Shown: piece after piece, positions 19,321-24,741 of the stretch
Numbering within the stretch: position 1 is the first letter of the stretch
Layout: the number at the start of each line of letters is the position of its first letter
Assembly (NCBI GenBank): GCA_015488885.1
Contig: WFMW01000015.1
Coordinates: forward strand, 1-34,875
Direction of reading: 5' to 3'
Origin: Gammaproteobacteria bacterium
Lineage (GTDB): Bacteria; Pseudomonadota; Gammaproteobacteria; SZUA-229
DNA: 34,875 nucleotides
Notes under the pieces: model-generated
The model's database searches: none
What the model was told of the DNA's origin: nothing
The model's input: only the letters and a program-made list of their open reading frames with translations
Made by a program: the position numbers and the translations under genes

Positions 19321-19339
19321 ACCAGGGTTCGATTTATTT

Positions 19340-19513
19340 AGTTACTGTCCATGAACAACGTCGTCACGAGGGTGATTCCGGTGCATGAGACTCTAAGATA
19401 AACTCCTGGTTACAAGATATAGGCGTTTGGTTATTCCAAATAACTATATCTCGTGGCCGAAAGATTATGCGTCGGAAGTGGCCACAGTAGATGTCTGTTC
19501 ATGGTCGGTAACT
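19340..19513 (-). repeat. 17-bp inverted repeat enclosing the cbbM 3' region
   Basis: AGTTACTGTCCATGAAC (19340-19356) and GTTCATGGTCGGTAACT (19497-19513) can pair at 15 of 17 positions, leaving a loop of 140 bases. The outer arm contains two bases of the cbbM stop codon (19512-19514). The loop includes a perfect GTGGCCAC palindrome. Confidence 0.75.
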
Positions 19514-20897
19514 ATTTATGAACACCCAGTTTTTCACGCCAGCCGGGGAAGATCTGATCGGCATCACCGGGGAAGGATTCGAATGCGCGGGCGAATTCAT
19601 GATGCTCTTTGGCATATTCGACCGGGTCAGCACCTTCTTTCCAGCATTCATACGCCTGACGCAGAGATTTTGCACCAGCTGCCGGGCTGTCAATATGGCC
19701 GTAAGCACCACCACCCGCGGTGTTGATAACATTTCCATGGCCCAGATTCTCGAAGAAGCCAGGTAAACGTAGCGCGTTCATGCCACCGGAAATAATCGGG
19801 GTAGTGGCTTTCATGCCATCCCATTTCTGATAGTAGACAGGACCCTGACACTCATCGCGTTCAATCATATAAGCAATGATTTTGTCATCCTGTGAGCCTT
19901 CCATTTTGCCGTAACCCATGGTGCCGACATGAATACCGGAAGCCCCTTGCAGGCGGGAAAATTTAGCCAGTACATAAGCATCATAACCACGTTTTGCAGA
20001 CGGTGAAGTAACCATCCCGTGACCGGCGCGGTGATAATGCAGGAACTGGTTCGGGTACTGACGACGGGCAGTGGTAATCATCCCCGGGCCACCGACAAAA
20101 CCATCAACCAGGAAAGCGACGTGGGAAGCATTTTCACCAAAAGTTTCGAGGGCAAAATCAGCACGTGCACACATTTCATGGTAATCGTCAGCGGTAATAT
20201 TCATAGAGAACAGTTTGGCTTCACCTGTTTCATCCTGAGCGCGAGCCAGTGCGTCTGCGACCAGAGGAATTACTTCTTTTACCGGGCAGAATAACTGGTT
20301 GCCCTGAGGCTCGTCATTTTTAATAAAATCACCACCCAGCCAGAACTGGTAAGCGGCATCGGCAAATGGCTGTGGGCGTAAACCCAGTTTGGGTTTGATA
20401 ATGGTGCCGGCAACATAACCACCGTTTTCAACCGGGCGACCCAGAATACGCCACATATCGGAAATATTTTTTGCCGGACCGTCAAACAGTTCAAGAAATT
20501 TGGGCGGTATCCAGAAGTCATACATTTTGGCATGTTTTACATCACCCATGCCCTGATTATTACCAATCATCATGGTTAGCATGGAAACCAGCATGGCGCG
20601 ACCATCGATAATATTACGGTCAAATAATTCAACCGGGTAGGCAATACGCATTTCCTCGGTGGCTTCATCAATATGATATACCAGTGCATCAACGCCTTTG
20701 GTGAAGTCGTCAGTGGTGCAGACTTCAACATTGGTACCGGTTGAAGATTCTGCCGCAAAGTGAGCCGCTGTTGCCAGGTAGCCGTGGCCGGCAACGGGTG
20801 CCATTTTATATGCGGCGAGGACGTGTTTGCCTTCAGCCAGCAGGGTATCTTCATCCAGAGTCAGATCTGAATAACGTGCGGTTTGGTCTAATGCCAT
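19512..20897 (-). CDS. cbbM: Form II ribulose-1,5-bisphosphate carboxylase/oxygenase
   Basis: This 461-residue protein is a typical form II large subunit. All key residues are present: Lys168 in [12 protein letters not shown], the carbamylated Lys193 with Asp195 and Glu196 in [14 protein letters not shown], His289 in HYHRAGHG and loop-6 Lys331 in [10 protein letters not shown]. They sit two residues later than in the Rhodospirillum rubrum enzyme. It fixes CO2 onto ribulose bisphosphate in the Calvin cycle; form II has no small subunit, and none is present. A strong AGGAGA ribosome binding site precedes the ATG. It is divergent from cbbR and followed by a terminator, then cbbQ and cbbO. Confidence 0.98.
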
Positions 20898-23518: not shown

Positions 23519-24313
23519 CTATTTGTCTTTATCCCAGAAAAAACGATTCGGGTGGTATTGTCCCATGCCCAGTCGGTGAGCGTTCAGCAAGGTTTTGTAG
23601 GTGTAGTCCAGTGCCTGACGTACGGCACCCAACGGTTCCTGACCTAATGCAGTTTGTGCGGCAATGCTCGATGCCAGGGTGCAGCCAGAGCCATGATATT
23701 TGTGTGGCAGGCGGGCATAATGAAAGCTTTCAATTTCACGGTGATTGCAGAATAAAGTGTGGACTACATCCGGCGTTTTACCATGGGTGCCAGTGAGTAA
23801 AATATAGTCAACATCTGATTCCAGTAAACCCATGGCGGCGGCGGTCGGGGTGTCGGAGCCGGGGGCGAGGGCATGAACTTCAAATACATTGGGCGTCAAT
23901 ATTCGGGTTAAAGGTAATAATAATGTTTTTACGCTGTCTATCACTTCTTCGCTACTGAGTGCGCTGTCTTTTTCGGTGCTGAATACCGGGTCGTAAATAA
24001 CCGGTATGTCCGGGTAGTCAGTAAGGATGGAGCGAATAGCCATAACCACTTCAGCACTGCCAACCATGCCGATTTTTATTACTGCAACCGGCATGTCTTC
24101 CAGTACCGCACGTGCCTGTTCAATCAGCAGGTCGGGTGGCATGGGTGAAAACGAGCTGACATCGACAGTATCCTGAACCGTGGCAGCAGTAATGATGGGT
24201 GCCGCGATACAGCCATGACTGCTCAGGGTTTCAATATCGGCAGAAATACCTGCTCCACCCGTCGGGTCGGCACCGGAAAAACATAATACAACAGGTGGTT
24301 GAGTATTTGTCAT
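23519..24313 (-). CDS. thiD: Hydroxymethylpyrimidine/phosphomethylpyrimidine kinase
   Basis: This 264-residue ribokinase-fold protein starts PPVVLCFSGADPTGGAGISADIETLSSHGC, the ThiD signature. It has IPVIYDPVFSTEKDS and the C-terminal KYHGSGCTLASSIAAQTALG anion hole. It phosphorylates HMP twice to HMP pyrophosphate. The frame is open to 24367, but the extension runs into a large hairpin (24348-24508) and the ATG at 24313 places the protein start as in other ThiD. It heads the thiD-thiE operon. Confidence 0.94.
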   Translation of the reverse strand: MTNTQPPVVLCFSGADPTGGAGISADIETLSSHGCIAAPIITAATVQDTVDVSSFSPMPPDLLIEQARAVLEDMPVAVIKIGMVGSAEVVMAIRSILTDYPDIPVIYDPVFSTEKDSALSSEEVIDSVKTLLLPLTRILTPNVFEVHALAPGSDTPTAAAMGLLESDVDYILLTGTHGKTPDVVHTLFCNHREIESFHYARLPHKYHGSGCTLASSIAAQTALGQEPLGAVRQALDYTYKTLLNAHRLGMGQYHPNRFFWDKDK

Positions 24314-24347
24314 AATAGTCAGAGAGTCAGTGTAAATATTGTATTTT

Positions 24348-24508
24348 ACCTGAATCCGTAGGTTCATCGTGGATACAGTGTACGTGATATTGATTTCACA
24401 GTGGTTTAAAAAATCTTAGTTTCACCCATAGATTAAGTGGGCATTTTTTAAACCGCTGTGGGATCAAGAGCTTGTGCAATGTGCTGCGATGAACCTGCGG
24501 ATCCAGGT
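24348..24508 (+). repeat. 161-nt imperfect palindrome between thiD and the rubredoxin gene
   Basis: The left arm 24348-24414 (67 bases) and right arm 24443-24508 (66 bases) are inverted copies. The outermost 22 and innermost 18 bases are nearly perfect and the middle is about two-thirds matched with one gap. The loop is 24415-24442. Most arm differences are of the kind that leaves a G-U pair in a + strand RNA. It could be a structured leader or small RNA, or the remains of a miniature inverted-repeat element. It ends 62 bases before the rubredoxin start. Confidence 0.8.
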
Positions 24509-24570
24509 TTTATATTAAACCAGTCTGTGTAGAATAGCCATTTCAAAAATCATTTTCAAAGAGGGTTCGA

Positions 24571-24741
24571 GTGGCTTACAAAACTTATATCTGTATTGTT
24601 TGTGGTTATATTTATAATGAAAAACGGGGCGATGAGGAACACGGCCTGGCACCCGGCACCCGCTGGGAAGATGTGCCGGATGACTGGGAATGCCCTGAAT
24701 GTGGTGCCGGAAAAGAGGATTTTGAAATGCAGGAGATATAA
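24571..24741 (+). CDS. Rubredoxin (GTG start)
   Basis: This 56-residue protein is complete: VAYKTYICIVCGYIYNEKRG at the start and ECPECGAGKEDF at the end. The two CxxCG knuckles (Cys8, Cys11, Cys41, Cys44) bind one iron. The other rubredoxin hallmarks (GYIYN, GLAPGTRWEDVPDDWECP) are all present. It is a small cytoplasmic one-electron carrier, often serving alkane hydroxylases, superoxide reductase or rubrerythrin; no such partner is nearby. The start is GTG with AGAGGG upstream. The gene is short and easily missed. A TAGAAT with TGTG before it (near 24525) may be its -10. It converges on yjbQ. Confidence 0.95.
   Translation: MAYKTYICIVCGYIYNEKRGDEEHGLAPGTRWEDVPDDWECPECGAGKEDFEMQEI

Follow-up and report, generated by a model that had tools for sequence, protein, structure and literature searches.

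The thiD–rubredoxin intergenic region

The window, that is the whole stretch of DNA analysed here (34,875 nucleotides), contains two divergent genes separated by a gap that holds a long near-palindrome. thiD lies on the minus strand (23519–24313), and the rubredoxin gene, which begins with GTG, lies on the plus strand (24571–24741). The likely start of thiD is 24313 (MTNTQPP), the position from which the products of six of the seven relatives align at residue 1 of MTNTQ. The longest thiD open reading frame starts at 24367, inside the palindrome described below, so an automatically annotated ThiD may carry a false N-terminus. In the same seven relatives, which have the same gene pair, the gap measures 100–226 nt and holds no such palindrome; here it is 257 nt, falling to 93 nt once the palindromic element and one target-site duplication are removed. 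Downstream of the element, alignment with the relatives places a −10-like box, TAGAAT (TGTGTAGAATAGC; 24530–24535, plus strand), which is recognisable in most of them and is a putative promoter element of the rubredoxin gene.

The palindrome is a 159-bp unit (24349–24507, plus strand). Its outer arms (24348–24369 and 24487–24508) are 91% complementary and its inner arms (24375–24414 and 24443–24482) 78% complementary, around a 28-nt loop. A preliminary description of this DNA had reported a near-palindrome at 24348–24508; the arms and loop are confirmed, with the correction that the outermost bases, 24348 and 24508, belong to flanking TTTTA duplications (24344–24348 and 24508–24512, read from the flank sequence), so that the mobile unit is 24349–24507. 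Motif search places terminal inverted repeats at 24349–24366 (CCTGAATCCGTAGGTTCA, plus strand) and 24490–24507 (minus strand, reverse complement CCTGGATCCGCAGGTTCA). Matches to the IHF consensus (WATCARNNNNTTR) occur in both arms: on the minus strand at 24383–24395, with two mismatches here and zero or one in most type A and B copies, and on the plus strand at 24462–24474 (GATCAAGAGCTTG, one mismatch). The apical loop region (24415–24442, plus strand) carries a conserved CACCC (24423–24427), whose distance from the left end is 75–76 nt in most of the family. At 159 bp the unit is too short to encode a transposase, and it has no gene of its own.

The fold is strong and asymmetric. For 24340–24515 the plus strand reaches −89.7 kcal/mol (z −12.1; 0 of 200 shuffles as good) and the minus strand −65.6 kcal/mol (z −10.2), so the differences between the arms favour the plus strand. 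A strand-neutral pair map gives, for the window copy, 13 opposed G-U pairs, two A-C pairs, and five other mismatches. For the element, plus is the more stably folding strand, which corresponds to the left-to-right direction of IS1380 elements. In the Rfam search no family, the TPP riboswitch included, reached its gathering score, so the earlier statement that this is not a thiamin riboswitch was correct; weak matches to miRNA models are as expected of any long hairpin.

A second long hairpin lies at 19339–19514, between the RuBisCO form II gene and a cbbQ-like gene, with arms at 19339–19357 and 19496–19514 (−76.8 kcal/mol, z −8.2 on the plus strand, fold of 19330–19520). It may be a further MITE or a structure involved in operon processing.

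A multi-copy family with target-site duplications

The terminal motif occurs at 26 places in the own genome and at none in the reversed control. Nine other genomes contain it at 9–277 places each; matches are few in same-family relatives. The own genome has one full-length copy (that of the window), one 77-bp copy (contig C36), and otherwise mostly short forms of ~20–36 bp, some with exact 5-bp duplications, while other genomes hold dozens of full copies. Altogether 129 full-length copies, including the window copy, were extracted from Chromatiales/Sedimenticola-type genomes, and nearly all measure 157–163 bp. Of these, 79 have exact 5-bp flanking duplications, against an expectation of 2.3 when partners are shuffled; there is a tendency for the duplicated target to start with T and end with A. 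A third subtype comprises 24 copies from Geothermobacter hydrogeniphilus, 13 of which have exact 5-bp duplications. The window copy is homologous to the full-length copies elsewhere and scores 140 bits on the plus strand and 77 bits on the minus strand with the family covariance model. Among 369 gammaproteobacterial genomes, this model finds the hairpin in 28, at near-constant length; two of these (G103 and G323) are apparently metagenome-assembled genomes (MAGs) already used in building the model.

The phage and plasmid collections yielded no full element, and three pattern matches in viral contigs gave no good covariance-model match. In several unrelated taxa the 18-bp end pattern adjoins a shared sequence, GGTTCATCTCGATGAA and variants, whose reverse strand reads by chance like the FIEMNPRIQVEH motif of biotin-dependent carboxylases; this is a trap for pattern searches. 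Matches of this kind (L044, L049, L050, L056, and similar) seem to fall by chance in carboxylase-like coding sequence; they have no paired end and were left out of the element set.

The unit at 24349–24507 is thus very likely a copy of a multi-copy non-autonomous element (MITE), inserted between thiD and the rubredoxin gene and probably mobilised in trans by an IS1380-type transposase, an identification drawn from the sequence features of multiple copies, 5-bp target duplications, empty sites in relatives, and IS1380-type ends. The preliminary description had offered a decayed inverted-repeat element as its alternative and proposed a genome search for copies with target duplications; that alternative is the right identification, and searches returned the 26 motif places of the own genome and, over all sources, the 79 duplicated targets given above. 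What lies at the thiD–rubredoxin locus is therefore an ordinary kind of thing; the family behind it is unusual. Literature searches, with subscription papers and ISfinder mostly outside their scope, found no published description of the family. As a type the element is already known; what looks like a new variant of it is the core, which is fixed in length, shared across phyla, and strand-biased, with ends that can be exchanged.

Probable mobilisation by an IS1380-family transposase

At its termini (CCTGAATCCGTG) the MITE matches the terminal repeats of the ISAzo40 group of insertion sequences, which belongs to the IS1380 family. Ends of this type are found on plasmid-borne IS1380 relatives in Magnetococcus, Methylomonas, Halomonas, Polaromonas, and Cupriavidus, detected by an inverted-repeat search that was not seeded with the motif, and exact 5-bp duplications flank some of these. 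They also occur on IS1380 elements of Aromatoleum (ISAzo40), Alicyclobacillus, Geobacillus, and Pseudodesulfovibrio, and several of the elements from these nine named hosts have 5-bp duplications. IS1380 copies in MITE-bearing MAGs lack matching ends, so an IS1380 partner first seemed unsupported; it was reinstated on the strength of a contig-edge fragment with the right end, and then of the plasmid-borne relatives. The fragment, from a copy-rich MAG, encodes an IS1380 N-terminal portion with CCTGAATCCGTAAC ~120 bp upstream. The draft assemblies of the own genome and the copy-rich MAGs contain fragments and contig-edge pieces, and no complete IS1380 element with matching ends.

Because the termini match and both kinds of element make 5-bp duplications, an IS1380-family transposase of the ISAzo40 group probably moves the MITE in trans. 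In the proposed mechanism, this transposase would bind the terminal CCTGAATCCGTG repeat of both arms, and the IHF-like sites, one per arm, could bend the DNA and help to bring the ends together. Insertion between thiD and the rubredoxin gene duplicated TTTTA.

Beyond the 12–14-bp ends, the MITE interior has no sequence similarity to IS1380, so a fold-back origin of the palindrome must be read from motif spacing in three to four of the nine elements. CACCC occurs at nt 76–78 of the left end in four of nine IS1380 elements (nt 75–76 in the MITE), and in three of nine a same-strand IHF-like site begins at nt 35–36 (nt 35 in the MITE). None of 2000 shuffles reaches either count, for motifs that were chosen after looking. 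This spacing suggests that the palindrome may derive, by fold-back, from the left end of an IS1380 element.

A conserved core with apparently exchangeable ends

In 42 copies that represent all three subtypes, both partners have changed at 29 of 49 pairs. In this alignment 95.4% of cells are paired, against 82% in column shuffles and at most 44% when the arms are slid. Wobble positions are fixed and kept across phyla; column 26–147, for example, is U-G in 39 of the 42 copies. The IHF consensus, with at most one mismatch, is matched at one fixed right-arm position in 53 of 60 type A copies, whereas ~5% of shuffles reach such a match anywhere in the arm. A site also lies at the matching left-arm position; the sites are strong in types A and B and weaker in type C. 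IHF binding at these putative arm sites is predicted from the consensus matches.

Distant members have other ends (CCCTAATCC, CCTAGAAA, CCTAAA), the same core layout, and mostly 5-bp duplications. Five same-size hairpins (L342, L347, L333, L340, and L345) likewise combine this layout with other terminal repeats (CCTAGAAA, CCCTAATCC, CCTAAATT), again mostly with 5-bp duplications, which suggests that ends are exchanged between elements. In the own genome, a locus at C50:19298–19412 (~305–420 of L020) shows an CCTGAATCCGGGG end followed by a perfect-looking palindrome, GGCACAAATTATTGATT...AATCAATAATTTGTGCC, that contains IHF-consensus-like sites; it appears to derive from the MITE core.

A MITE is usually defined by its ends, and its interior can drift freely. 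In this family the full 160-nt palindrome retains length, wobble positions, and apex across distant hosts, while the ends can change. This also carries a warning: large covarying hairpins returned by RNA-motif scans may be mobile DNA.

Strand bias and a possible folded single strand

The asymmetry seen in the window copy extends to the family. In 125 of 129 full-length copies, and in all 14 distant members, the plus strand gives the more stable fold; the distant members were found with a covariance model that itself favours that strand. G-U pairs outnumber A-C pairs by 282 to 27 across the 42 copies, which bears out, family-wide, the earlier remark on a G-U bias between the arms. On the subtype trees, internal branches carry 52 changes from Watson–Crick pairs to G-U against 7 to A-C (p = 1.4e-9), and terminal, single-copy branches 196 against 140; the two classes differ (Fisher p = 4e-6), and since branches are not fully independent, these p-values serve as guides. 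The counts were made with a strand-neutral pair map, because the plus-strand fold used as a map could favour G-U; that map gave the same result, as did both parsimony tie rules.

The orientation of insertions with respect to genes is nearly random, with no convincing preference, so host-gene transcription does not explain the consistent strand. In a cruciform both strands fold, and G-T and A-C mismatches count alike; the bias therefore points to a folded single strand, whether RNA or DNA. The contrast of descendant-leaving with single-copy branches points to constraint on the plus-strand fold during propagation, not at the thiD–rubredoxin locus. The preliminary description had spoken of selection on an RNA. 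The family-wide bias (52:7 versus 196:140) supports that part of the claim which concerns constraint on the plus fold, now placed in propagation; a role at this locus finds no support, given that homologous gaps lack the element and that it lies upstream of the rubredoxin −10-like box.

Tentatively, the ~160-nt core may be a strand-specific single-strand structure (RNA or ssDNA) needed for propagation and combined with exchangeable IS1380-type ends (CCTGAATCC, CCCTAATCC, CCTAGAAA, CCTAAA) across Gammaproteobacteria and Geothermobacter, a member of a different phylum. If so, a DDE-type MITE would depend on a folded single strand, for which we know of no precedent. The differing substitution patterns of copies that do and do not leave descendants offer a testable case for needs beyond the transposase ends.

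The strongest rival is a purely neutral MITE, rather unlikely in our judgement, whose hairpin would be a by-product of inverted ends and whose G-U excess would come from strand-asymmetric mutation linked to propagation (e.g. if the plus strand is exposed as ssDNA, or if source copies are heavily transcribed). Type A terminal branches are near balance (75:69), and unpaired sites on internal branches also lean 8:1, in tiny numbers, as a propagation-linked mutation bias predicts; the strand bias could thus be partly mutational. Both C>T and A>G changes feed the G-U excess, and transcription-associated mutation would enrich both. Neutrality is harder to reconcile with the double compensatory changes, the positions fixed as wobble across phyla, the far stronger bias on descendant-leaving than on single-copy branches, and the near-random gene orientation.

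A cis-acting regulatory RNA of the rubredoxin gene (or thiD), selected at this locus, is very improbable. The strong plus-strand fold and its agreement with the sense strand of rubredoxin speak for it; the empty sites in relatives led to its rejection. Homologous intergenic regions, proposed earlier as a place to look for a conserved RNA, thus lack the element in all seven cases. Moreover, copies adjoin unrelated genes in every orientation combination, the conserved −10-like box lies downstream of the element, and single-copy changes barely protect the fold.

Short forms

Among the 20-bp palindromes (CCTGAATCCGTGGGTTCAGG), 23 of 63 have exact 5-bp duplications (0.8 expected). Such REP-like palindromes with MITE termini are seen at L014, L016, and L023 of the own genome and at other loci, several with exact 5-bp duplications. 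They are most simply remnants of the MITE; a deletion that joined the left arm's repeated GGRTTCAGG to the right end would account for them, though the 20-bp units may also transpose independently. This is a possible way for REP-like repeats to arise from MITEs. A REP/BIME-type repeat moved by a RAYT (Y1, HUH) transposase was rejected as extremely improbable: the own genome has three Y1-transposase genes (PF01797 matches) and its short palindromes resemble REPs, but the exact 5-bp duplications and IS1380-type terminal repeats do not fit, and no MITE-type ends lie near those Y1 genes.

Comparison with other small elements

Several known elements resemble this family in type. Correia/NEMIS of Neisseria (about 107/155 bp) is likewise a small MITE with stem-loop transcripts, and its 155-bp form binds IHF (PMC2229807); the relation is by type only, since the present MITE has an IHF-like site in each arm and is palindromic over its whole length. 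YPAL/RU-2 of Yersinia (168 bp) and ERIC/RU-1 (127 bp) are palindromic or stem-loop MITEs of similar length. Unlike the family here, YPAL has duplications that vary from 3 to 26 bp and internal inverted repeats; the same paper describes no cross-phylum family (PMC2229807). In QMITE2 of Coxiella and in REP elements, as here, full-length forms exist alongside truncated REP-like ones (PMC5896051); QMITE2 differs in its 7–11-bp duplications (5 bp here) and in having no IHF site. The Chunjie MITE of Geobacter uraniireducens shares a Geobacter-group host and many copies of varied size (PMC10969869); at 235 bp it is longer, the comparison with the present MITE being one of published descriptions.

A further counterpart is the ISAzo40 group of IS1380 itself. 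Its members have the same CCTGAATCCGTG terminal repeats and the same 5-bp target duplication, and some share the IHF-like site (nt 35–36) and CACCC (nt 76–78) of the left end; unlike the MITE, they span ~1.66–1.74 kb (five measured) and carry a transposase gene.
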